45,468 bases of DNA from Hyperthermus sp. Lineage in GTDB: Archaea > Thermoproteota > Thermoprotei_A > Sulfolobales > Pyrodictiaceae. The translations under genes were made by a program, and so were the position numbers. The number at the start of each line of letters is the position of its first letter. Position 1 is the first letter of the stretch. A model generated the notes under the pieces. It searched no databases. It saw nothing but the letters and a program-made list of their open reading frames with translations, and was not told the DNA's origin. The stretch spans positions 1-45,468 of the forward strand of contig QNYQ01000026.1 of assembly GCA_003978665.1 (NCBI GenBank), given 5' to 3'. Shown piece after piece: positions 5,766-26,978 of this stretch.

Positions 5766-6461
5766 ATGAAGCATGTGACAGTAATTAGGCCGGCCCTAGC
5801 ATTAGCGTTCATCGCAGTCTTGTTGGCCGGCTATATTGCCGATGCAAGCCAGTACCGCGACCCCGACAAGTACCAGTTCTACCCCTGCAGCCAGTGCCAT
5901 GCCACGATGAAGGTTACTGGGATGGTGAAGAAGCAGCCCTTCCACGGTATAGACCTTACCAAGGGCGCTCACGCTGGCCTTTACTGTGTCAACTGTCATG
6001 CAGCACCTCAAGTGGATAGGCTCAAGACACGGAACGGCTACGTTGACATAGCTATACCAGGCCTAATGGGCCACGAGGAGTTGATGAAGCTTAACAAGGT
6101 CTGCGAGCGCTGCCACCCCCAGACGTATAGAGACTACATGCATCTAGCACATGCTAATAAGACGTACACTTGTAGCGGTGGAAGCGTTGAGATCGTGAAG
6201 GGCTACAAGGGCATAGCATACGACTTCCACGTGTGTAGCGAGTACAAGAATCTAGCTATGAAGCCCGCAAAAGCTTGCGTAGAGTGCCACGACCCCCATG
6301 TCGGCGTCTATCCGGCGATAAGCATTATGCCCCCTCACAGCGAAAGGCCGGCGCCGCCGCCGGAGGAGACGATAGCCTATGGTCTCATTGCAGCTGTGAC
6401 AGCTGGCCTGGCCTTGTTGCTCACATCCGTGGCCCTAGCCTCTCATACCAGTAGGCAGTAG
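5766..6461 (+). CDS. Tetraheme c-type cytochrome with signal peptide and C-terminal TM anchor
   Basis: Four CXXCH motifs (CSQCH, CVNCH, CERCH, CVECH), an N-terminal hydrophobic signal and the C-terminal helix AYGLIAAVTAGLALLLTSVALA. Confidence 0.88.
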   Translation: MKHVTVIRPALALAFIAVLLAGYIADASQYRDPDKYQFYPCSQCHATMKVTGMVKKQPFHGIDLTKGAHAGLYCVNCHAAPQVDRLKTRNGYVDIAIPGLMGHEELMKLNKVCERCHPQTYRDYMHLAHANKTYTCSGGSVEIVKGYKGIAYDFHVCSEYKNLAMKPAKACVECHDPHVGVYPAISIMPPHSERPAPPPEETIAYGLIAAVTAGLALLLTSVALASHTSRQ

Positions 6462-6474
6462 GGGGTGAAAGGTA

Positions 6475-7530
6475 GTGGTTGAGGATAAGGCCTCCGGGGC
6501 CGGGCTGACTAGGCGTGAGCTGCTCAAAGCCATGGCGGTGGTGGGCGGAGCCTCCACCATATCGTTCATAGCTATTGACCGTGAGAAGCTGCGTGCAGTG
6601 CTTAAGCCGGTGAGCTTGGAGGAGATACTTGGGCTTGAGGCTGAGGCTTCTGCCGACGAGAGTGAGCTGGAGAGGAAGGCCAGGAAGAAGGAGGAGGAGA
6701 TAAAGAAGTGGTGTAGTAGGGAGGCCGAGAAAATATGTAGCGCGAAGGGCGGCGACAGCCCTGAGTGCAAGGAGGCTAAGAGAAGATGTAGCATGGTGAA
6801 GGTGAAGGCTACGCCAGCTAAGCCTGGAGTAAGGTTTGCGATGGCCCTCGACATTAACAAGTGTATAGGCTGTAGGCGCTGCGCCTACGCGTGCGTGATG
6901 GAGAATAATCAGGATAGGGAGATGCATATTGAGTGGATAAAAGTGGTTAGTGTGCCCAGGGAGGAGTTCGAGATACTCAACACTAAGCTCGACTACACCA
7001 AGGCCCCCGAGAAGAACATGGTATACGTGCCGATGGCTTGCATGCACTGTGAAGACCCGCCCTGCGTGATGGTGTGCCCCGTTAGGGCTACGTTCAAGGA
7101 GCCTGACGGCATAGTGGTGATAGACTATGATCGCTGCATAGGCTGCAGGTACTGTATCACAGCATGCCCCTACGGCGCCCGTAGGTTCAACTGGAGAAAG
7201 CCAACAATACCAGTTACAGAGCTGAACCCCAACATGCACATACTCGGCAACGTGCTAAGACAGCCGCATGTAACGGAGAAGTGCACGTGGTGTATACAGA
7301 GGTCTCGTGACGGGGGCGTGCCAGCGTGTGTTGAGGTCTGCCCCGTAGGCGCTAGGAGTTTCGGCGACCTCAACGACCCCGAGAGCCCCATAAGAAGGAT
7401 AATAGAGGAGTATGGAGCCTTTGTTTTAAGGCCCGAGGCTGGCACCAAGCCACGCTTCTTCTACTACTTCGGGCCTGCTCGAACACCGCCTCGCGAGGAG
7501 GCTTCTGGTAAGAGTGGTGGAGAGGGGTGA
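6475..7530 (+). CDS. Tat-type four [4Fe-4S] ferredoxin subunit (NrfC/DmsB/PsrB-like)
   Basis: TRRELLKAMAVVGG is a twin-arginine motif. Four cysteine clusters follow: CIGCRRCAYAC, CMHCEDPPCVMVC, CIGCRYCITAC, CTWC...CVEVC. Confidence 0.9.
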   Translation: MVEDKASGAGLTRRELLKAMAVVGGASTISFIAIDREKLRAVLKPVSLEEILGLEAEASADESELERKARKKEEEIKKWCSREAEKICSAKGGDSPECKEAKRRCSMVKVKATPAKPGVRFAMALDINKCIGCRRCAYACVMENNQDREMHIEWIKVVSVPREEFEILNTKLDYTKAPEKNMVYVPMACMHCEDPPCVMVCPVRATFKEPDGIVVIDYDRCIGCRYCITACPYGARRFNWRKPTIPVTELNPNMHILGNVLRQPHVTEKCTWCIQRSRDGGVPACVEVCPVGARSFGDLNDPESPIRRIIEEYGAFVLRPEAGTKPRFFYYFGPARTPPREEASGKSGGEG

Positions 7531-7536
7531 TTAGTC

Positions 7537-8802
7537 GTGGCTGCGAGAGAGTATGGTGGCGGGTTTGTTGACACGATCAAGTATATTGTGAGTAAGGGGC
7601 TGCTGGAGGGTAGCAGAGCGTACTACATGGCCCTGCTAGGCCTGGTCTTGATGGCTGCCTACGGCGTCTACGTTTGGGTGTTCATTCAGCATGCCCCAGT
7701 ATTCCTCAAGAGCGACTATGGAGGCATGATGCTCACTGGCATGAGCGATTCAGTGCCCTGGGGACTCTACATCTCATTCTTCATATTCTGGGTTGGAGTT
7801 GCTGCAGCCGGTATAGTGTTCGGTTTAGCCGGCTACGTCTTCGGCCACAAGGGCTTCAAGAAGGTTGCAGTCCTCGGTGAGGTCCAAGCGGTTGCGGCGA
7901 TAGTGACGGTGCTGTCGCTTATAATGGTTGACATAGGCAGGCCCTTGAGGGCTATGATACTGATGCCTCAGCTGCCGAACCTGCACTCAATGCTAGACTG
8001 GGACTTCATGGTGCTCACGGGCTACCTGATCCTAAACATTATAGGGTTCCTGGTAACCGTTCACTACTATCGCCAGGACAAGCCTATACCGAGGAAGTTC
8101 CTGGTACCATTCATGATAATAGCCTCGCCGTTCGCCATAGGCATACACACAGTGACAGCATTCATATCGCAGGCGCTGGTAGCTAGGCCCTACTGGAACA
8201 GCCCACTACTGGCGCCACGCTACGTTGCCACAGCGTTTGCCAGCGGCCCGGCAATACTAATGCTTGTGCTCGTGCTTGCAGAGAAATACATAAAGGGCTT
8301 CAAGGTTGATGACGACGTGTACAGGAAGACTATGCTGGTAATGGTTGGCGCCCTAATAATTGGGCTCTACTTCACCTTCAGCGAGGCCCACGAGGTCTTC
8401 TGGTACACCACGGAACCCCTGAAGAAGGCCCAGTTCGAGGAGGCATTCTACGGCTACCATCTGGGCTACCTGCCAGTGATGATGATGCTCTGGATAGGTC
8501 TTGGCGCGGCTGCAGTAATACTGGCGCTTATACCCAAGGTGCGTAACACGTGGCCGGGCAGGCTGCTGATTGCTGTTATAACGATAATTGCCGTGATAAA
8601 CGAGAAGACAATGTCAATACTAGTGCCAGCATACATACCGGACCCCTTGGGCAGGTACATACTATACTATCCGACACCGCTCGAGTATGCTATAACGCTC
8701 GGAATGCATGCCATAGGCATACTAGTCTACCTAGTACTGGCGAAGGTTGCTATAGAAGTCATCATGACACACTACTTCCGTGGTAGTGGCGCACACCACT
8801 AG
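7537..8802 (+). CDS. NrfD/PsrC-family polytopic membrane subunit (quinone-interacting type)
   Basis: 421 aa polytopic protein immediately downstream of the ferredoxin subunit, with SVPWGLYISFFIFWVGVAAAG, DIGRPLRAMILMPQLPNLHSMLDWDFMVLTGY and IHTVTAFISQALVARPYWNSPLLAPRYVATAFASGPA. Confidence 0.88.
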   Translation: MAAREYGGGFVDTIKYIVSKGLLEGSRAYYMALLGLVLMAAYGVYVWVFIQHAPVFLKSDYGGMMLTGMSDSVPWGLYISFFIFWVGVAAAGIVFGLAGYVFGHKGFKKVAVLGEVQAVAAIVTVLSLIMVDIGRPLRAMILMPQLPNLHSMLDWDFMVLTGYLILNIIGFLVTVHYYRQDKPIPRKFLVPFMIIASPFAIGIHTVTAFISQALVARPYWNSPLLAPRYVATAFASGPAILMLVLVLAEKYIKGFKVDDDVYRKTMLVMVGALIIGLYFTFSEAHEVFWYTTEPLKKAQFEEAFYGYHLGYLPVMMMLWIGLGAAAVILALIPKVRNTWPGRLLIAVITIIAVINEKTMSILVPAYIPDPLGRYILYYPTPLEYAITLGMHAIGILVYLVLAKVAIEVIMTHYFRGSGAHH

Positions 8803-8803
8803 G

Positions 8804-8810
8804 CTTTTTT
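8804..8810 (+). terminator. Candidate oligo-T termination signal after nrfD-like gene
   Basis: GGCTTTTTTGC immediately after the stop codon. Confidence 0.3.
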
Positions 8811-8907
8811 GCTTGAGGTGTCGTGAAGGACTGCACATCCCTTACAACCTATATGATGGGCTATCATGAACCCGTAGATAAATGCTCAAATGTGACCGAC
8901 CGAGTTA

Positions 8908-9606
8908 ATGGCGTATAGGAGGAGAAAAGCTGGAGGAAGGTGGTCCGGCATGAGGCGTGGGGTATCCCTCGTAGCTATAGGGGCTTTCATCCTGGCAGTA
9001 GTGGCTGCTGGAGCGCTCGCACTAGCGCTTAGCGAGAGTGAGGCGCAGAAGGAGTTTCAGGCTAAGGGCTGTGTAGGCTGCCATAACGGGCAGATAGCAC
9101 CAGACTTTAAGGGAGTAATTGCTAAGCTGAAGAGCTGGGCCACTAAATACGCGAGCCTCGATGAGGCCGTAGCCTCTGAGGCATCGAGCTTCAGCATGCC
9201 TCAGTTCAAGACCGCGAAAAACTGGAATGATTTGATGAGCAAGATGCCCGGTATCACCGACGAGTTAAAGAAGTTCTTTGAGCAGGTCTACGCTAAGGCT
9301 AAAGGGGCTGGCGGCAAGGCTGCTGGTGCAGCAAAAGCCACTACGACTGCTCCAGCAGCCGCCGCGGCTGCTGCCCCCAAGACTGTAACAGTCACGGTAA
9401 CCACCACTAAGAGTATGGTAAGCACCGTCGTCAAGACGATAACCAAGACTGTGACGGAGAAGGAGATACTAACAGAGACTATGGGCACACCCACCTGCGA
9501 GGAAGGAACGGCGAAGCTCGTATCCAAGGCTGCCTTCGTGGCCGCTGTAATAATAGCTATTGCAGCCATAGCTGTAGCATACATGTTTATGTCTGCGAGA
9601 AGCTAG
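8908..9606 (+). CDS. Monoheme cytochrome c with Ala/Thr-rich stalk and C-terminal TM anchor
   Basis: KEFQAKGCVGCHNGQIAPDFKG is a heme site. It is followed by KAAGAAKATTTAPAAAAAAAPKTVTVTVTTTK...TITKTVTEKEILTET and the helix AAFVAAVIIAIAAIAVAYMF. Confidence 0.85.
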   Translation: MAYRRRKAGGRWSGMRRGVSLVAIGAFILAVVAAGALALALSESEAQKEFQAKGCVGCHNGQIAPDFKGVIAKLKSWATKYASLDEAVASEASSFSMPQFKTAKNWNDLMSKMPGITDELKKFFEQVYAKAKGAGGKAAGAAKATTTAPAAAAAAAPKTVTVTVTTTKSMVSTVVKTITKTVTEKEILTETMGTPTCEEGTAKLVSKAAFVAAVIIAIAAIAVAYMFMSARS

Positions 9607-9715: not shown

Positions 9716-10849
9716 TTGCCTGCTGGGTGCCGGGTCTTCATCGCTGTTCTGGAAGGGGTTAGCATGAGGGATGTGGGCTGTCTTGGTGGGGATTGTAGAG
9801 AGTTTCTAAGGACTCTTGGTGAGGGAAGGGTTGCGCTAGTTGTTGTTGCTGGTTCGACGCGTACATCGACCATTCCTGGGCTGAGTATAGCTGGGCCTTC
9901 GCCTCAGGCTACCCTGTGGACTCCTACGCTTGATGTGGAATACCTTGTTGCCGGTAGGCCTCTTTCCCTCGATGTTATACCCGTGTCTCCTCAGGGGCTG
10001 CCGACTCCTGCAGTGATTACTAGGGCTATTGTAGAAGAGTTGGCCGTGTCCCTGCTTGTTGTTGATGCTGGAGTTGTGTATGAGCCTCGGATCCCGCATG
10101 TGAGGCTTCCTTCGCGTACTCCTGGCGGGAGGATTGATGTTGAACGAGCTCTCCCGGAGGGTGTTGCTGAGAGGTTGTTTAGTGAGTCGAGGATGTTGGG
10201 TAGGATGTTGGCGAGAGGGTTTGATGTGGTCATAGTGGGCGAGACTATTCCAGGCGGCACGACTGTTGCTGCTGCATTGCTTGAAGCGCTGTGTTGTAGG
10301 GGGCTGGGAAGGGTTAGCAGTAGCTCTGCCAGCAATCCGCATGAGCTGCGTTCGCGTGTTGTTGAAAGGGCTCTTAGCAGGCTTAGGGTGGAGAGAGGGC
10401 TCGATGTGTTTGATGTTGTAGAGTGTGTTGGAGACCCCGTCCACGTATCTATCGCGGGGCTCGCTGCCGGTATTATCGACGCTGGTGCCTGGGCCGGGCT
10501 TGGGGGAGGTACTCAGATGGCTGCCGTGCTGGCTTTGATGTCGAGAATAGAGTCTGGTGCATTAGAGAGAACGGTTGTGCTTACAACTCCATGGATAATA
10601 AGTGATCCAAGCTCCGACATTGAGGGTTTGGTGAGGGATGCGGGGGGTGGTGTGCCCATAGTGTATCCTAAGCTGTCTTTCTCTTCAATGGCTAGTCCCG
10701 GTTTACGGGCATACGAGAAGGGCTACGTCAAGGAGGGTGTTGCGGCAGGAGCTTCAATGGTGCTGGGCCTCGCCCGTGGGCTGGGGGTGGGGGCTCTGTT
10801 AGAGCTTATTGAGAGCGAGTATGTTAGGGTGGCTGCTGGTGGAGGCTAG
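9716..10849 (+). CDS. cobT: Archaeal CobT-like nicotinate-nucleotide:dimethylbenzimidazole phosphoribosyltransferase family
   Basis: TSTIPGLSIAGPSPQATLWTPTLDVEYLVAG, VGETIPGGTTVAAALLEAL and GGGTQMAAVLAL, plus its position in a cobalamin operon. Confidence 0.85.
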   Translation: MPAGCRVFIAVLEGVSMRDVGCLGGDCREFLRTLGEGRVALVVVAGSTRTSTIPGLSIAGPSPQATLWTPTLDVEYLVAGRPLSLDVIPVSPQGLPTPAVITRAIVEELAVSLLVVDAGVVYEPRIPHVRLPSRTPGGRIDVERALPEGVAERLFSESRMLGRMLARGFDVVIVGETIPGGTTVAAALLEALCCRGLGRVSSSSASNPHELRSRVVERALSRLRVERGLDVFDVVECVGDPVHVSIAGLAAGIIDAGAWAGLGGGTQMAAVLALMSRIESGALERTVVLTTPWIISDPSSDIEGLVRDAGGGVPIVYPKLSFSSMASPGLRAYEKGYVKEGVAAGASMVLGLARGLGVGALLELIESEYVRVAAGGG

Positions 10850-11906
10850 GGTAAGCCTGGTTGGCGACAGCCTTGTCATCGACATGGGCTTGCAGCTTCA
10901 TGTTGCCTCAAGCCTGCATGGTCTTAGGAGGGCCCGCTACATAGTATTCCATTATGTTGACGAGGACTTTACAGTAGATGATGTCGATAGTTTATCCCGG
11001 CGCTTGTTGGCCGGGCTAGGCCTTCCCGTAGGAGATTCTCTGGTGTTTTTCACGGCTGTGGAAAGGGGCAAGCATATAGGCGTTAGGGATGGCCCCGTTC
11101 ACGTGTATGCTACGGTTGGCTTGAAGCCTCCCGTCTGTATTAACTATGATAGCCTTTATGAGCCCCCGTTGGCGGGCACGATCAACGTGCTTGCTGTGGC
11201 GTATGAGCCTCTCTCTGAGCCGGCTTTAATCGACTTGTTTAGGGTTGTTGTCGAGGCGAAGACTCTTGCGGCTAGCATGCTGGGGCTTAGGTGTAAAGGT
11301 AGGGCTGCTGGAACGGTAACTGATGCGATAGCTGTGGCTGCACCAGTTAGGCCCAGGGGGCATAGGTGGGCGGGAATGGCTACTAGGCTCGGCAACCGGG
11401 CTGCAAGGCTTGTATGGAGGGCTGTGGTTGCTGGTGATGAGAGGAGTGTCGAGGAGAGGCTTCGAGGCTTTCTCGGCGTCGGCTTAAGGGAGCTCGTGGA
11501 GGATGCTGCAAAACTGTATGCTGAGGCTCCTCTCGGGGATCCCGGCGGGTTTGAGAAGATATTTGCTGAGAAGCTGGCCATGGTGCTTAGAGACCCGAAC
11601 GTGTGGTCGCTCATTATCGCGGCTAGAGAGCTCGACCTCTACGGCTCCTCCGGCCTAATACCCGGGGTGAGTGAGGAGGAGTTCAATAGGGATAGCGGGA
11701 GGATCGTGGCTGATGAGGTCATGGGCTCAATGCTCGCCCTCTATCTCGCTGGCTTCAAGGGGCTCCTGGCCACATACTGGGTTGATAGAGAGAAGGATAG
11801 GCTTGGCCTACACCTCTCCCGCCTGCCCGTGTTCGAGGACGATATTGCAGCAGCGCTTGTCGGCTCGATCCTAGCCAGGATATATGATGAGGCCAGCGGG
11901 CAATGA
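10809..11906 (+). CDS. cbiS: Bifunctional adenosylcobinamide amidohydrolase (CbiZ domain) / alpha-ribazole phosphatase (CobZ-like domain), CbiS-type
   Basis: The N-terminal half has GRAAGTVTDAIAVAAP (CbiZ). The C-terminal half ELVEDAAKLYAEAPLGDPGGFEKIFAEKLAMVLRDPNVWSLIIAARELD...FKGLLATYWVDREK...FEDDIAAALVGSILARIYDE resembles CobZ. Confidence 0.8.
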   Translation: MRASMLGWLLVEARVSLVGDSLVIDMGLQLHVASSLHGLRRARYIVFHYVDEDFTVDDVDSLSRRLLAGLGLPVGDSLVFFTAVERGKHIGVRDGPVHVYATVGLKPPVCINYDSLYEPPLAGTINVLAVAYEPLSEPALIDLFRVVVEAKTLAASMLGLRCKGRAAGTVTDAIAVAAPVRPRGHRWAGMATRLGNRAARLVWRAVVAGDERSVEERLRGFLGVGLRELVEDAAKLYAEAPLGDPGGFEKIFAEKLAMVLRDPNVWSLIIAARELDLYGSSGLIPGVSEEEFNRDSGRIVADEVMGSMLALYLAGFKGLLATYWVDREKDRLGLHLSRLPVFEDDIAAALVGSILARIYDEASGQ

Positions 11907-12436
11907 GGCTAGCTGCCGTGGTCATGGCTGGGGGCTCCGCTTTAAGGATGGGTGGGGTTGTGAAGCCGCTGTTGCCAGTGTGTGGGGTACCTATGATTGT
12001 TAGGGTGTTGTCCGCTCTCTCGCCGATAGCAGATAGCGTAGTGGTTGCTACATCACCTTCCACAACCCCGTTCCTTAAGGGTGTTTGCAGCCTCCTTCGA
12101 CCCGACTCATGCATAGAGCTGGCGGGCAGCTCCTATCCAGCTGACATGCGTCTCGCAAGCCTAATCATTACTAAACGCCCCCTACTCTTCGTTCCAGCAG
12201 ATACGCCTCTGCTAACATCAGGGGTTCTGGAGGGTTTTGTGAAGGCTTCACTGAGGATGGGGAAGGGGCTTGTCACGTTGCTTGGCAGGAGTGGCCCGGT
12301 TGGAATTTCAATTCTATTAGACCATTTTAATCCCTGGAGTAATATAACTCTCAGCGATGACTCATCATTGTTCAACGTTAACACCTGGAGCGATTACGTG
12401 AGGGCGAATAGGCTTTGCAGCATGCAGCGCTCCTAA
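11903..12436 (+). CDS. cobY: Adenosylcobinamide-phosphate guanylyltransferase (archaeal CobY)
   Basis: AAVVMAGGSALRMGGVVKPLLPVCGVPMIVRVLSAL nucleotidyltransferase motif and FVPADTPLLTSGVL. ATGA 4-nt overlap with cbiS. Confidence 0.85.
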   Translation: MRLAAVVMAGGSALRMGGVVKPLLPVCGVPMIVRVLSALSPIADSVVVATSPSTTPFLKGVCSLLRPDSCIELAGSSYPADMRLASLIITKRPLLFVPADTPLLTSGVLEGFVKASLRMGKGLVTLLGRSGPVGISILLDHFNPWSNITLSDDSSLFNVNTWSDYVRANRLCSMQRS

Positions 12437-13518
12437 AGCATGGCGGCCAGCCACCTCCATGGGCGGAGGATTTCAGCGCGCCCCTAAACCCTCTCGGACC
12501 CCCCTACACTATTGCTGACCTATTAGGCGAGTGTGTGAAGGCCAGCGTGTATACTCGGTACCCCAGCCCCGATTACCGTGGCCTCCGCGAAGCCATAGCG
12601 GCCTTCCACGGCGTTGATGCAGGGGAAGTAGTGGTGGTTAATGGGGCGGCAGAGGCCTTAACGCTGATCCCGGCTATGCTGCGTGCTAGAAGGCTTATCG
12701 TTATAGAGCCGAGCTACGGCGATCATGGCGTTCAAGCTAGGCTATGGGGTGTTGAGCTGCGCAGGGTCCTTGTAGATCCCGGTACCGGTTCTTGGCTTGG
12801 GCAGGATGTTTTCTATAGTCTCCTCGTAGACCATGGTATAGTGTTGCTGACGAGGCCCAACAATCCCGTAGGCTATCTTGTAGCCCCTGACATAATATAT
12901 GAGCTTGCCGAGAAGCTTTCACGGAGAGACAGCATGCTTGTTGTCGATGAAGCCTTTATAGACCTGGCCCCAGGCGCCGAACCCTTGGGCTTGACTGATG
13001 GACTTATCGTGGTGAGGAGTTTCACCAAGGCATTTGCCTTGCCGGGAATAAGGCTCGGCTACATCTACGCTGAGGCAAGCCTCGCATCAAGGCTCCGCCT
13101 AATGCTTCAGCCATGGCCCGTGTCCAGCATCTCATCATGTGTTTACTCGAAGCTCCTCTCCACAACCTCCGTGAAAAACTACTTGGAGAGGGCCAGGAGC
13201 CTCATAGCAGAGGAGGCCCCCAGGATTAGGAGTGCCCTCTCCTCGATGGGGCTTGTAGCCTACCCTACCAGTGCCCCCTTTATACTGGTTAGGCACAGGG
13301 GACTCACCCATCCAGGCTTCCAAGAGGAGCTTGCTAGGCGTGGCGTGTATGTTCGCGATGCTAGCAGCTTCTATGGTTTGGGGCCAGATTACAGTAGGGT
13401 ATCGGTTAGGACTCCAGGCCATAACGACTTACTCCTCAAGGTATTCAAGATGGTGGTCGAGGAGCAATGGGGTTTGCTTCAAGGCTTACAGCCTTCCCGT
13501 GCCTCCTCTCCTTCCTAA
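12415..13518 (+). CDS. CobD/CobC-like aminotransferase class I/II (threonine-phosphate decarboxylase family)
   Basis: HGGQPPPWAEDFSAPLNPLGPP, RYPSPDYRGLREAIAAFHGV, VVDEAFIDLAPG and SFTKAFALPGIRLGY (PLP lysine). Confidence 0.85.
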   Translation: MQHAALLKHGGQPPPWAEDFSAPLNPLGPPYTIADLLGECVKASVYTRYPSPDYRGLREAIAAFHGVDAGEVVVVNGAAEALTLIPAMLRARRLIVIEPSYGDHGVQARLWGVELRRVLVDPGTGSWLGQDVFYSLLVDHGIVLLTRPNNPVGYLVAPDIIYELAEKLSRRDSMLVVDEAFIDLAPGAEPLGLTDGLIVVRSFTKAFALPGIRLGYIYAEASLASRLRLMLQPWPVSSISSCVYSKLLSTTSVKNYLERARSLIAEEAPRIRSALSSMGLVAYPTSAPFILVRHRGLTHPGFQEELARRGVYVRDASSFYGLGPDYSRVSVRTPGHNDLLLKVFKMVVEEQWGLLQGLQPSRASSPS

Positions 13519-14219
13519 CAAGGATACCGGGCAGATGCCATGACGTGAGAAGGGCTGCCTACGCGTTTCCCCTCGCCCCCCTGGTGGGTTTGGTAGAAGG
13601 GCTTCTCCTGTCGCTCCTTGCATCTATGATGCATTGTAGCCCTAGGATTACGGGTGCCCTTCTACTGGTGGCTCACCTCATGCTTACGGGCGGTATTCAC
13701 ATGGAGGGGTTCGCTGACTATAGTGATGCTGTAGGTGCTGGTGCGCGTGGGAATAGGGCCTTGGAGCTGCTAAAGGACCCTAGGAGGGGAGGCTTTGCGG
13801 TCATCTTTACGGCTGTCCTTGTTATCGCGAAGTATGCTGGCTATGCGTCCCTGGCAGAGAAGCCGTTAGCGTTACTGTCGCCGTATGTAGCCTCCACCGA
13901 GGCAATGTATATTGCCAGCATTATCCTGCCCTCAGCCAATGCTGAAGGCTTGGGCATGCTCTTTAAGAAGCTTGGAGCAGTTGGGGACGGAGTTATGGTT
14001 AATATCGTGGCGTTCGCCCTTTCCTCGCTTACAGTGGTTTGGCTCCTGCCTCAAGACTCTCTTATAGCATTGTCCACGGGTGTTTTAGCAGGCTTACTCG
14101 CCGCCATTGACGCGTTGAAGAGGATCGGGAGAGTCTCGGGTGACGCCCTAGGCTTCGTCTACGAAGTGTCTAACACAGCATCAATCCTAGGTGTCGCGGC
14201 ACATGGCTGCGCCTCCTGA
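13467..14219 (+). CDS. cobS: Adenosylcobinamide-GDP ribazoletransferase (cobalamin 5'-phosphate synthase)
   Basis: FLTRIPG..., GGIHMEGFADYSDAVGAGARGNRALELLKDPRRGGFAV (CobS signature), polytopic. Confidence 0.9.
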   Translation: MGFASRLTAFPCLLSFLTRIPGRCHDVRRAAYAFPLAPLVGLVEGLLLSLLASMMHCSPRITGALLLVAHLMLTGGIHMEGFADYSDAVGAGARGNRALELLKDPRRGGFAVIFTAVLVIAKYAGYASLAEKPLALLSPYVASTEAMYIASIILPSANAEGLGMLFKKLGAVGDGVMVNIVAFALSSLTVVWLLPQDSLIALSTGVLAGLLAAIDALKRIGRVSGDALGFVYEVSNTASILGVAAHGCAS

Positions 14220-15147
14220 ATGGGTTTATCCTGGAAGAGAGCTCATGCTATACTCAATACTCTTATCCCACCTACTTGACGTGGTCTATCCCTTCCACAC
14301 AGGTATTCTTTTATCTCTCCACCCGGTTCACACCAGCTATGTCATGTCCCTGAGGCTTGCCCCTCCATTCTCCTCTAGGATGCGTGGCGTGCTTGTATGG
14401 TTTGTTGTGGTGGTTGTGCACATTGCACTATACTCCCTCATCCTCTACGCTGCCTGGAGCATATCTCGCTTCCTCTGGCTCCTAGCATCTTCGTGGATTC
14501 TGAAGACCTCTTTCTCACTGAGACTGCTGCTTGAAACAGTCAGTGGAGTAGGAGCTAGGCTGGACGGGGGCGATGTATGGGGGGCTAGGAGGCTCGTAAG
14601 CGGTATTGTTAGAAGGGATGTGAGGGAGCTGGGGCCGGGTCATGTGGCTAGTGCAGCACTTGAAAGCCTCGCCGAAAGCATGGTTGATGGATACGTTTCC
14701 CCCCTCTTCTATGCTCTAGCCCTAGGGCCTCTGGGCGCGCTGCTTCAAAGGCTAGCAAACACTCTTGACGGCTCCCTAGGCTATAAGACCCCAGAGTATA
14801 GGGATGTTGGATGGTTTAGTGCGCGTATGGATACAGTACTCAACTACGTGCCTGCCAGGCTTACAGCCCTCTTGCTCATTCTCCTATCACCTATAGCGTT
14901 AGGTGATCCCAGGCGGGCGTGGATGGTGTGGAGGCGTGATGCAAGCGCTACGGATAGCGTCAACGCTGGCCACCCTATGTCAGCCATGGCCGGGGCTCTT
15001 GGGGTAAGACTGGAGAAGAAAGGGTACTATAAGCTGGGGGAGGGACCTCTTCCAGGCCCCCTGCACGTAAGGCTTGGGTTGAGACTAGCGGTGGCGGCTG
15101 CGCTTGCTTGGCTTTCCATATGTATTATTGTGCTCTCACTACTCTAA
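14191..15147 (+). CDS. cbiB: Adenosylcobinamide-phosphate synthase
   Basis: DVWGARRLVSGIVRRDVRELGPGHVASAALESLAESMVDGYVSPLFYA, NTLDGSLGYKTPEYRDVGWFSARMDTVLNYVPARLTAL and GHPMSAMAGALGVRLEKKGYYKLGEG. Confidence 0.93.
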   Translation: MSRHMAAPPEWVYPGRELMLYSILLSHLLDVVYPFHTGILLSLHPVHTSYVMSLRLAPPFSSRMRGVLVWFVVVVVHIALYSLILYAAWSISRFLWLLASSWILKTSFSLRLLLETVSGVGARLDGGDVWGARRLVSGIVRRDVRELGPGHVASAALESLAESMVDGYVSPLFYALALGPLGALLQRLANTLDGSLGYKTPEYRDVGWFSARMDTVLNYVPARLTALLLILLSPIALGDPRRAWMVWRRDASATDSVNAGHPMSAMAGALGVRLEKKGYYKLGEGPLPGPLHVRLGLRLAVAAALAWLSICIIVLSLL

Positions 15148-23409: not shown

Positions 23410-24517
23410 TGATGTTGTGGATGCTGCTATTATAGGTGGTGGCCCTGCCGGGCTTGCTGTAGCCAGCCATGTTAAGCACACCGACCTGGTAGTGTTGGAG
23501 GCCAGGAGAAAACTCGGCCACCCTCCCCACTGCACTGGCGTGGTAAGCCCCTCTACTGCTACAAGGCTCGATGCATGGGAGGTTGTTGAAGCCCAGTATA
23601 CCGTAGCGGTATTCCTTGATGGAGGGTTTAAGGAAGCCTGCAGGCTGGAGGACAAACCGGTCGCAGTTAAGCTTTCAAGGCCAGGGCTTGAAGAGCTTCT
23701 CGCAGCCAGGGTTGAAGATGCTGGTCACCGCGTGTACAGAGGTGTCAGGGTCCGTGGCGTTATAGACGGCAAGGGCGGCATACGAGTTGTAGCCGATGGC
23801 TGGAGGGGGTTTTTCGGCAGGGTTGTGGTAGCCACGGGAATAAACACCTATAACCCCACCATCCCCCTGCCGGTCTCCCAAGGCAGCTGTAATAGTATTG
23901 TGGGCGTGGAGGCTCGGGTAGTTTTCGAGGAGAGGGTGGGCGACGAGGAATTCTACACCATCCACGCCACGAGCCTCGCCCCAAGCTTCTTCGCCTGGAT
24001 AGCCCCCCTCTCCGGGGGCAGGGAAGCCGCTGTCGGCTTGGCGGGAGGAGTGCCTGGAAGCCTCTATGACAGGCTAAGGCTACTCCTCGCACTGGTCTCC
24101 CGTAGGCTTTCATGGATACGTGGGGTGAAAGACTATCGAGGCGGCGTCATAGCTAGAGGACCCCCCGCCCTAAAGGCTTCAAGAGGCCCCATCCTCTGGA
24201 TCGGCGATGTCCTCTGCGCCTCCAAGCCTTTCACTGGAGGAGGACTCTATGCCATAAGCGTGCTAGCCCCCCACGCAGCCAAGGCGCTGGATGCTGGCGA
24301 TGTTAACGGCTTAGAGGAGGTCTGGAAGAGTCTTAGGAGGGAGCTCATCCTCCAGCGCTCCGCAACCCGTGCTGCACTAGCCGCTAGACACCTCTTCCCC
24401 CGCCTCCTCAGCCTAGCCTGCTCTCCCGCCCGCCGAGGCCTTTGCAAGGTTAGGTTTGACGAGCATAGCAGCCTCCTACCATGCCTGCTCCTAGGGCTAG
24501 CATCCCGTGGAGACTAG
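23393..24517 (+). CDS. Geranylgeranyl reductase family FAD-dependent oxidoreductase
   Basis: DAAIIGGGPAGLAVASHV FAD motif, HCTGVVSPSTA, AWIAPLSGGREAAVGLAGG, and ILWIGDVLCASKPFTGGGLYAISVLAPHAAKAL. Confidence 0.88.
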   Translation: MQAGADDVVDAAIIGGGPAGLAVASHVKHTDLVVLEARRKLGHPPHCTGVVSPSTATRLDAWEVVEAQYTVAVFLDGGFKEACRLEDKPVAVKLSRPGLEELLAARVEDAGHRVYRGVRVRGVIDGKGGIRVVADGWRGFFGRVVVATGINTYNPTIPLPVSQGSCNSIVGVEARVVFEERVGDEEFYTIHATSLAPSFFAWIAPLSGGREAAVGLAGGVPGSLYDRLRLLLALVSRRLSWIRGVKDYRGGVIARGPPALKASRGPILWIGDVLCASKPFTGGGLYAISVLAPHAAKALDAGDVNGLEEVWKSLRRELILQRSATRAALAARHLFPRLLSLACSPARRGLCKVRFDEHSSLLPCLLLGLASRGD

Positions 24518-25456
24518 CCTGTCGAGGACTATGGGGACGGCAATAACTATGCCTATTGCGAGGTTAGTGTTGAAAGCCTCCGGTATCGCTGCAACCCCCC
24601 TCCTCCTAAGCAAGACGTGCTGGTAGGCCAGCAACAGAGCCGATAACACCACCCCCAGCGCAGCCATAAACCCTAGATTGTAGGCTACTACGCCCAAAGC
24701 TAAGAGTAATGCTGTAGAAGCATGCATTGCCAGGCTTATGTCCAGCGCCGCCCCAGCCCCGAGCCTTGCGGGTATACTTCCCACGCCATGCCTTCTATCA
24801 AACTCGACGTCCAGGATAGCATAGTACGTGTCGAAGCCTGCAACCCAGAGCGCCACAGCTACAACATAGATCCAGGGGATCCCCGCCAGCACTCTTGAGA
24901 CACTATCCTCGATCATCCCCAGTGACGCTACAGAACCCCCGAAGATCACAAGGCCCAGCACTAGGCCCAAATGGATATGAGGCAGCCAATGAATTCTTTT
25001 AGCATGAGGATAAGTCATTGCCAGGATCCAGGGAAGAGGGCTCAGCATCATAGTATACTTGTTGATCATTACAGCCGAGGCATAGTACAGCACGCTGCCA
25101 AGCAATACGAGAACCCATGCGTCACGAGGCTTGACAGCCCCCGTGACGAGAGGCCTCGACCTCGTCCGCGGGTTCAACGCGTCTATATCCATGTCGGCCA
25201 AGTTGTTATAGGCCATTGCAGCAGTCCTCAACCCCAGCACAGCTAAGCCTATGAGAACAGCCTCCCGCAGGCCTATGCACCCGCTGCACGCCAGGCATGC
25301 ACCAGCATAAGCATAGGGGAGGCTGAACAAAGTATGCTCGATACGCACCAGCCTAGCCAGCGCCCTAACCCTACCCCTACCCGTCCTCCCAGGATCCCAG
25401 GAGGCCTGGCGCGTGAGAGACAAGGAGTAATCAGCTCCCCCCAAGCCCCATCTCAT
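24497..25456 (-). CDS. UbiA-family polyprenyltransferase
   Basis: RIEHTLFSLPYAYAGACLA, AMAYNNLADMDIDALNPRTRSRPLVTGAV, and FDTYYAILDVEFDRRHGVGSIPARLG. Confidence 0.92.
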   Translation of the reverse strand: MRWGLGGADYSLSLTRQASWDPGRTGRGRVRALARLVRIEHTLFSLPYAYAGACLACSGCIGLREAVLIGLAVLGLRTAAMAYNNLADMDIDALNPRTRSRPLVTGAVKPRDAWVLVLLGSVLYYASAVMINKYTMMLSPLPWILAMTYPHAKRIHWLPHIHLGLVLGLVIFGGSVASLGMIEDSVSRVLAGIPWIYVVAVALWVAGFDTYYAILDVEFDRRHGVGSIPARLGAGAALDISLAMHASTALLLALGVVAYNLGFMAALGVVLSALLLAYQHVLLRRRGVAAIPEAFNTNLAIGIVIAVPIVLDRLVSTGC

Positions 25457-26978
25457 CCCACACCAAGTCTATACGCCTCACGGTATCCGGGTCAGGCTCA
25501 ACTTCAAGCGGCCACTCCCTCCACCCATACTCCTCGGGCAGCTTGCGCGTGGCATCTATCCCCAGCTTACTACCATAACCCGGAACCACCACGGCCGGGT
25601 CAAGGTGGTCGGTGTGGGCTCCAGGTATAACTACTACGTCCCTCTGCGGGTCCACATGAGCAGCCACAGCCCACATTACCTGGTTCAAATCGTTAACATC
25701 TATGTCATGATCGACTACAACCAGTATCTTCGTCAGCGATAACTGACCCAGCCCCCACAACGCCATCATAACCTTCTTCGCCTGCCCCGGGTAAGTCTTC
25801 CTTATGGAAACTATAGCTATGCCGTGGAAGACCCCGTAAACGGGCATGTTCACGTCCACTATCTCGGGGATCAGAGTCTTGATGAGGGGCAGGAATATCC
25901 TCTCGGCAGCCTTACCTATATACGCGTCCTCTAGAGGAGGCTTACCCACAACAGTGCCCACGTAGATAGGGTTGTCCCTCATCCAGATTCTCTCAACAGT
26001 CATCACCGGGAACCTGTGGACCGGCTTATCATAGTACCCCCAGTGGTCTCCAAAGGGCCCCTCCTCAGACTCTCGTCCAGGCTCTATGAAGCCCTCCACT
26101 ACTATCTCAGCCGTAGACGGGACCAGTATGCCGCTGGGAAGCTTGTAAACCCTTATCCCGCGCCCGGCCATAACACCTGCGAAGAACAGTTTGTCGACGG
26201 GAGGGGGAACGGGCATTGCGCCGGCAAGCATCGCTGCGGGATCGCCTCCCACAACAACCGCAACCCTCATAGCCTCCCCCTTCTCCATAGCGTCGAGGTA
26301 CGCGTGCCTCCCCCTCTTATGGAGCTGCCAGTGGATTACAGCCTCTCTTGCACCCTTCAACATGACCCTATAGGTGCCTATGCCTATCGTACCGCTCCTC
26401 GACTCCCTGAAATACACTTGCGCGAATGTAAAGTATCTCCCACCATCACGAGGCCACGACTTAAACGCTGGGATCGAGTTAAGATCGGCCTCATCACCCT
26501 CCAGCACATTATCCTCGAAACTAGCCCTCCTCGACGGCTTCGGAGTGAAGCGTGCGAGACCAGCTACATCCCTAAGGCTGCTAAGCTTCTCCAGCACACC
26601 CGTCGGCGGCGGCCTCCAGAGGAGGCCGGCAAGCCTCCAGCCAATATCCTCTAAGCGCTCAACCCCAAGAGCAAGCTTAATTCTCTCCATCGACCCAAAA
26701 ACATTACCCACAACCCTCCATCCAGGATAACCCTCCACGTTCTCAAAAAGTACAGCAGGGCCGCCACTCCTCATAACACGCCTCAACACCTCGGGTATCT
26801 CAAGGATAGGGCTTAGAGGAGTCCTCACACGCTTCAAGAGCCCACGCGACTCCAGTAGCTCAAGCAACTCCCTGAGATCGCTAGGCGCCTCCACGGGCTC
26901 CACCCACCCTTCACTATTCCCCGGAGAGTCGGCTGCCACCTTCCCGGGAGTAGACGGGGTCATGCTGGCTGGGAACAC
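25431..26978 (-). CDS. UbiD-family (prenylated-FMN type) decarboxylase
   Basis: FAQVYFRESRSGTIGIGTYRVMLKGAREAVIHWQLHKRGRH, ESEEGPFGDHWGYYD, ILVVVDHDIDVNDLNQVMWAVAAHVDPQRDVVVIPG. The alternative ATG at 26963 may be the true start. Confidence 0.93.
   Translation of the reverse strand: MFPASMTPSTPGKVAADSPGNSEGWVEPVEAPSDLRELLELLESRGLLKRVRTPLSPILEIPEVLRRVMRSGGPAVLFENVEGYPGWRVVGNVFGSMERIKLALGVERLEDIGWRLAGLLWRPPPTGVLEKLSSLRDVAGLARFTPKPSRRASFEDNVLEGDEADLNSIPAFKSWPRDGGRYFTFAQVYFRESRSGTIGIGTYRVMLKGAREAVIHWQLHKRGRHAYLDAMEKGEAMRVAVVVGGDPAAMLAGAMPVPPPVDKLFFAGVMAGRGIRVYKLPSGILVPSTAEIVVEGFIEPGRESEEGPFGDHWGYYDKPVHRFPVMTVERIWMRDNPIYVGTVVGKPPLEDAYIGKAAERIFLPLIKTLIPEIVDVNMPVYGVFHGIAIVSIRKTYPGQAKKVMMALWGLGQLSLTKILVVVDHDIDVNDLNQVMWAVAAHVDPQRDVVVIPGAHTDHLDPAVVVPGYGSKLGIDATRKLPEEYGWREWPLEVEPDPDTVRRIDLVWDEMGLGGS

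Follow-up and report, generated by a model that had tools for sequence, protein, structure and literature searches.

A conserved NrfD-type module of the Pyrodictiaceae and its probable octaheme cytochrome partner

Which enzyme does a membrane respiratory module serve when no catalytic subunit is encoded beside it? This question is raised by a 45,468-nucleotide stretch of DNA (contig QNYQ01000026.1, hereafter the window) from a Hyperthermus species, a heat-loving deep-sea archaeon, in which four consecutive genes, here called A to D (positions 5766 to 9606), encode two cytochromes c, an iron-sulfur protein and an NrfD-like membrane protein. We find that this module is real, conserved and orphan, and that it is not undescribed. 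What is new is its association with a surface octaheme cytochrome, which, judged by distribution and gene linkage, is its probable partner. On these grounds we consider it rather likely that the module is a quinol:cytochrome c oxidoreductase and not a terminal reductase, with the octaheme as its acceptor.

Composition and conservation of the module

All four genes lie on the forward strand, separated by gaps of 13 bp (A-B), 6 bp (B-C) and 105 bp (C-D). The initial annotation had described four co-directional genes, and coordinates, motifs, Pfam matches and topology all agree with it. Subunit A (5766..6461, +), the orthologue of Igni_0530 and Pyrde_0488, is a C-terminally anchored, extracytoplasmic tetraheme cytochrome c of 231 residues with a hydrophobic N-terminal signal, four CxxCH motifs and a C-terminal transmembrane (TM) helix at 207-225; it passes the Pfam cut-offs for Cytochrome_C554 (24.8 bits, cut-off 20.8) and Paired_CXXCH_1. 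The alignment shows that the four heme sites are kept across the archaeal members together with five further histidines (H60, H69, H129, H155 and H178), which could supply bis-His heme ligation, and the cysteine pair C136/C157. With its four CxxCH motifs, the conserved spare histidines and a weak resemblance to the NrfB/DmsE/NetB carriers, A looks like a wire and not like an enzyme.

Subunit B (6475..7530, +; 351 residues) is a DsrO/NrfC-like protein, predicted to be exported by twin-arginine translocation (Tat; N-terminus TRRELLK), whose 16 cysteines form four [4Fe-4S] sets; all 16 are conserved in the archaeal module members. Four more cysteines within residues 80-105 (window 6712-6789) make up an extra N-terminal Cx7Cx9Cx6C hairpin, which is conserved in the archaeal members and not present in the aligned bacterial and haloarchaeal relatives. 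Because the first and the last of these cysteines are both missing in one relative (G002), we infer that the two form a disulfide pair in B. Subunit C (7537..8802, +; 421 residues) is an NrfD/DsrP-like integral membrane protein (NrfD PF03916, E 1.2e-30) with 10 distinct hydrophobic peaks, read as 10 TM helices. In PsrC, ActC and QrcD it is the NrfD fold that forms the quinone-binding subunit, and C is probably the quinol-oxidising subunit here. Subunit D (8908..9606, +; 232 residues), the orthologue of Pyrde_0485, is a membrane-tethered monoheme cytochrome c with a signal segment, one CxxCH at 55, the candidate heme ligands M110/M113, a flexible Ala/Thr-rich linker and a C-terminal TM helix at 210-228. 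The AlphaFold models of A (pLDDT 42, 2-row alignment) and D (pLDDT 52, 3-row alignment) are too poor for use, and a Foldseek search with this poor D model gave no match of E < 0.001.

No catalytic signature was found in A, B, C or D by Pfam and NCBIfam profile searches. Likewise, a Pfam scan of 28 of the window's about 40 probable genes, together with a CxxCH search, revealed no subunit of molybdopterin, hydrogenase or NrfA type, the search for NrfA being confined to the window; among the window's open reading frames only A and D carry CxxCH. This agrees with the absence of a catalytic subunit from the flanking DNA that was noted earlier.

Clear orthologues of C occur in 23 of 98 relatives, namely 17 Pyrodictiaceae (family f1), Ignicoccus (f7) and the genus g25 of family f10. 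The order A-B-C-D is held throughout the Pyrodictiaceae wherever the locus is complete, which lies far beyond chance, while A-B-C stands without D in Ignicoccus and at the f10 locus. Identity to the Pyrodictiaceae orthologues is about 58-78% for B and C, 38-66% for A and 25-52% for D; in two named Pyrodictiaceae records, C is 65% identical to that of the window. D follows C in the Pyrodictiaceae and is also present in one f10 genome (G038); three Ignicoccus genomes yielded no match to it. In Pyrolobus (L034:10283-11209) a duplication has turned D into a diheme protein, in which the heme domain occurs twice. A divergent B-C pair of 33-38% identity (G052:C8, L049) adjoins a molybdopterin gene with an in-frame TAG. 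Moreover, an anchored monoheme cytochrome recurs beside the module, the octaheme or a NapA-like gene (L035:6182-6946, with a Pfam Reeler domain; L038:12538-13239; L045:13819-14544; L153:7488-8171; L157:929-1615). A similar Ignicoccus protein, Igni_1052, rose 3-fold in co-culture together with Igni_0528 (PMC3149612).

The gene set has been met before, and the expectation of an undescribed complex therefore falls. It was recorded in Ignicoccus and Hyperthermus, with Igni528-530 labelled polysulfide reductase (PMC2614490); in Pyrodictium delaneyi Hulk, Pdsh_08990-09020 were labelled a membrane-bound sulfite reductase (PMC5556600), and in strain Su06, Pyrde_0485-0496 a putative membrane respiratory complex (PMC8105010). 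The tetraheme Igni_0530 was even purified from I. hospitalis membranes and hypothetically proposed as part of a sulfur reductase (PMC4429474), and the NrfD protein Igni_0528 is 4-fold up when I. hospitalis is co-cultured with Nanoarchaeum (PMC3149612). Igni528-530, Pyrde_0485-0488 and Pdsh_08990-09020 are orthologous to the window module, with genes, order and cofactors alike: the tetraheme, the Tat-type iron-sulfur protein and the NrfD protein stand in the same order, and the NrfD proteins are monophyletic. The Ignicoccus cluster differs in that no D was detected there.

Family placement and the octaheme partner

We judged NCBIfam profile scores against each family's own cut-off. B comes closest to DsrO (193.5 bits, cut-off 200) and C to DsrP (238.9 bits, cut-off 350), both falling short; the next matches are NrfC (B, 124.9 bits, cut-off 377.6), TtrB, ArrB and QrcC/QrcD (150.1 bits, cut-off 400, and 63.5 bits, cut-off 570). 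A reached 20.1 bits with NrfB (cut-off 166.6), and the NetB model gave 18 bits (cut-off 380). A tree of 36 NrfD proteins unites the archaeal modules in a single group (support 96/99), apart from the other Thermoproteota NrfDs and with the DsrP of Flammeovirga as nearest outgroup (100/99); E. coli NrfD and Halorubrum have long branches and are not placed with confidence. The term DsrP-like thus stands on HMM (hidden Markov model) scores and the Flammeovirga sequence, the tree containing no DsrP from a sulfate reducer. That Flammeovirga gene exceeds the DsrP cut-off yet lies within a napA operon, so DsrP similarity need not mean DsrMK or sulfate reduction. The near-complete module genomes contain 11 further NrfD matches above the cut-off, of which 10 have a molybdopterin subunit encoded within 3 kb and the 11th is an interrupted fragment; not one module NrfD has a molybdopterin gene within this distance.

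The initial annotation had placed the architecture close to Qrc, alternative complex III or Dsr-type modules. What stands is an orphan NrfD-type quinone/cytochrome c module of the Dsr type. The other two comparisons do not hold: B, with 351 residues, has no ActB-like fusion and the module contains one NrfD protein, not the two of alternative complex III, while no QrcB-like neighbour and no linked QrcA homologue were found at the module loci. From Psr, Ttr and Arr-type enzymes it differs in having no molybdopterin subunit in the operon. DsrJOP of DsrMKJOP offers the same cytochrome, iron-sulfur and NrfD gene set and the closest sequence families for B and C; however, DsrJ has three hemes and A four, neither DsrM nor DsrK is encoded nearby, and there is no DsrA. 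The Flammeovirga kamogawensis operon (nap, cytochrome c3, iron-sulfur protein, DsrP) shows the same series, with C at 34% identity, but is embedded with NapA, and its cytochrome aligns with A at 23% identity with gaps, so that homology is not clear. NetBCD of Aeromonas and NrfBCD of E. coli, like the module, combine a multiheme cytochrome, a 4x[4Fe-4S] protein and NrfD without a molybdenum subunit and feed a multiheme reductase or conduit; NetBCD, of similar general design, is an inner-membrane quinol dehydrogenase serving extracellular electron transfer (PMC8805035, PMC9012536). In contrast to the module, NrfB is a soluble pentaheme and A an anchored tetraheme, their NrfD is shorter (8 TM against 10), D is added, and an octaheme stands where NrfA or MtrCAB would. 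Judged by their sequences, B and C are nearest to DsrO and DsrP and A is NrfB/c554-like; the module would work like NrfBCD and NetBCD without belonging to those families.

The octaheme is linked to the module in position as well as in distribution. In seven genomes (G005, G006, G008, G010, G012, G014 and G015) its gene is no more than about 15 kb away from the module, in G006 directly beside A, and most of these loci also carry a CcmE-like gene and CcmA/B/C/F. In P. delaneyi, CcmE-like, CcmC and CcmF genes come after the module, then a thioredoxin-cytochrome-DsbD-like fusion, CcmB, an HTH_10 regulator, an unassigned membrane protein and the octaheme; a CcmA-like ABC ATPase lies on the D side. 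The octaheme matches IhOCC of I. hospitalis (Igni_1359, PDB 4qo5) with E 4.9e-79, and no MccA structure is among its PDB matches. Module and octaheme are both present in the identical 10 of 71 near-complete relatives and both absent from the other 61 (Fisher p 2e-12, a value that overstates independence since only three lineages are involved). Mismatches are confined to incomplete genomes, and the octaheme is also missing from four near-complete genomes that carry genes for cytochrome c maturation but no module. A catalytic subunit encoded elsewhere and consistently partnered with the module had been named earlier as a finding that would refute the initial proposal; the HAO-type octaheme fills this role in part, as in near-complete genomes its occurrence matches that of the module without exception and its gene is often close by. 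Octaheme matches in G046, G056 and G084 were rejected, as they reflect coiled-coil similarity only. In the near-complete G005, stop codons or frameshifts break up the octaheme gene (C1:452766-455172, L058), and the NrfD match has one in-frame stop upstream.

The octahemes also differ in how they are mounted. While IhOCC is the solved relative, those of the Pyrodictiaceae add a long coiled-coil stalk and a C-terminal TM anchor; the f10 octahemes are stalked and anchored too, and the Ignicoccus proteins (638-640 residues) have neither stalk nor anchor. D is found only in lineages with a stalked octaheme, and in G038 a stalked HAO-type octaheme is encoded on the contig and strand that carry D. 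As D is present with the stalked form and undetected with the unstalked one, it may bridge the space to the raised octaheme. In published proteomes, the abundant proteins listed for I. hospitalis include Igni_1359 and the large subunit of the hydrogenase (PMC3149612), and for P. delaneyi higher amounts of D were recorded on ferrihydrite, with the octaheme Pyrde_0496 present on either acceptor (PMC8105010).

Electron path and competing assignments

Building on gene content and order, cofactor motifs, export signals, predicted topology, families and the co-occurrence and linkage with the octaheme, all of which are seen directly, we propose a path C-B-A-D-octaheme with quinol as donor. C would oxidise (methyl)menaquinol within the membrane, the quinol most likely being supplied by the group-1 uptake [NiFe]-hydrogenase, and the electrons would reach the anchored tetraheme A by way of B, whose four [4Fe-4S] clusters would be held on the outer side of the membrane. 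In the Pyrodictiaceae, the tethered monoheme D would then act as a swinging carrier that ferries them over the gap beneath the surface layer to the membrane-anchored HAO/IhOCC-family octaheme on its coiled-coil stalk, the putative surface reductase or conduit, with nitrite, sulfur compounds or Fe(III) as candidate final acceptors.

Several points weigh against this reading. The uptake hydrogenase is present in all near-complete module genomes, which suits a chain from H2 via quinone and module to the octaheme, yet hydrogenase and Ccm genes are distributed nearly like the module, making the hydrogenase a confounder as well. The co-occurrence comes down to Pyrodictiaceae, Ignicoccus and g25, so that its counts are not independent. 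The octaheme lies far from the module in Pyrolobus, in Ignicoccus and in the genus of the window, and the window genome (G000, a Pyrodictiaceae metagenome-assembled genome of 970 kb, 61% complete) yields only an octaheme of a second type (G000:C47); its stalked octaheme may lie in the missing 39%. Another multiheme system of P. delaneyi, Pyrde_0784-0787, competes as acceptor.

According to the published annotations, the module would be the membrane section of a reductase for sulfur, polysulfide or sulfite. In favour of this assignment, NrfCD-like proteins serve the MccA-type sulfite reductases, which are octahemes, and P. delaneyi Hulk grew on sulfite. Besides the labels given to Igni528-530 (PMC2614490) and Pdsh_08990-09020 (PMC5556600), sulfur is respired by Ignicoccus and most cultured Pyrodictiaceae (PMC2614490, PMC8105010). 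However, sulfur does not support growth of P. delaneyi Su06, which possesses the module (PMC8105010, PMC5556600), the SreABC-type reductase of Ignicoccus is a separate cluster (PMC2614490), the four subunits carry no catalytic signature, DsrA is absent from all 12 module genomes searched, and the linked octaheme is of the HAO/IhOCC type, with no MccA structure among its PDB matches; we regard this assignment as unlikely. A DsrMKJOP-type complex, in which DsrMK-like proteins from another locus would mediate electron exchange with a thiol/disulfide partner in the cytoplasm, would agree with the nearness of B and C to DsrO and DsrP and with the CCG-domain (DsrK-type) proteins of 11 of these 12 genomes. 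The CCG genes, however, keep at least about 30 kb away from every module and G014 gave no CCG match at all; together with the missing DsrA, a four-heme A that matched no DsrJ family and the Nap setting of the above-cut-off Flammeovirga DsrP, this makes such a complex most improbable.

A role as quinol dehydrogenase of a Nap-type nitrate reductase is suggested by Flammeovirga, where the sister module follows napA. In its favour, too, G014 has a NapA-like gene at a distance of about 6 kb from the module, and G001 and G007 have one close to the stalked octaheme. We place it low, since the NapA-like genes of P. delaneyi, Pyrolobus and I. hospitalis adjoin NapG/NapH-like genes of their own and the family was not found among the molybdenum proteins of four near-complete module genomes (G005, G008, G015 and G038); a Nap partner is thus quite unlikely. 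The module might also run backwards, as Qrc does, passing electrons from the cytochrome pool or hydrogenase to quinone: it has weak QrcC/QrcD similarity, and the I. hospitalis hydrogenase reduced the octahemes Igni_0955 and, to a lesser extent, Igni_1359 in vitro (PMC4429474). Against this speak the Qrc scores far under cut-off, the lack of a linked QrcA or QrcB homologue and the hydrogenase locus of G000, which has membrane proteins of its own, so that a detour through cytochromes is unnecessary. Reverse operation therefore appears very unlikely to us, and quinol oxidation towards the octaheme stays the preferred reading.

Genomic context and implications

Outside the module, the window contains genes for a UbiA prenyltransferase (24497..25456, -; PF01040, E 1.7e-45) and a UbiD decarboxylase (25431..26978, -; PF01977, E 1e-67), which overlap head to tail and, by their families, probably serve quinone biosynthesis. 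In G002, G005, G012 and G015, too, UbiD-family genes are no more than about 22 kb away from the module, and the quinone of Pyrolobus is methylmenaquinone (PMC8105010). Next to the module, positions 9716-15147 hold a late-step or salvage cluster for cobalamin with DBI_PRT, CbiZ and CobD/CbiB, accompanied by probable nucleotidyltransferase, aminotransferase and CobS-like genes.

In summary, the locus bears on how Pyrodictium, Ignicoccus and similar hyperthermophiles couple H2 oxidation to external acceptors. The module now stands under three conflicting labels in the literature. Reading it as a quinol:cytochrome c oxidoreductase would give a concrete, testable chain tied to an IhOCC-type octaheme, would correct the polysulfide- and sulfite-reductase annotations and would give the crystallised octaheme a possible physiological role. 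More tentatively, one may speculate about an archaeal wire for surface respiration, in which a DsrOP-like quinol dehydrogenase, a tetraheme and a tethered monoheme reach a stalked HAO-type octaheme that could act as a general terminal reductase for nitrite, sulfur compounds or Fe(III), with stalk and tether gained or lost jointly with the type of cell envelope.

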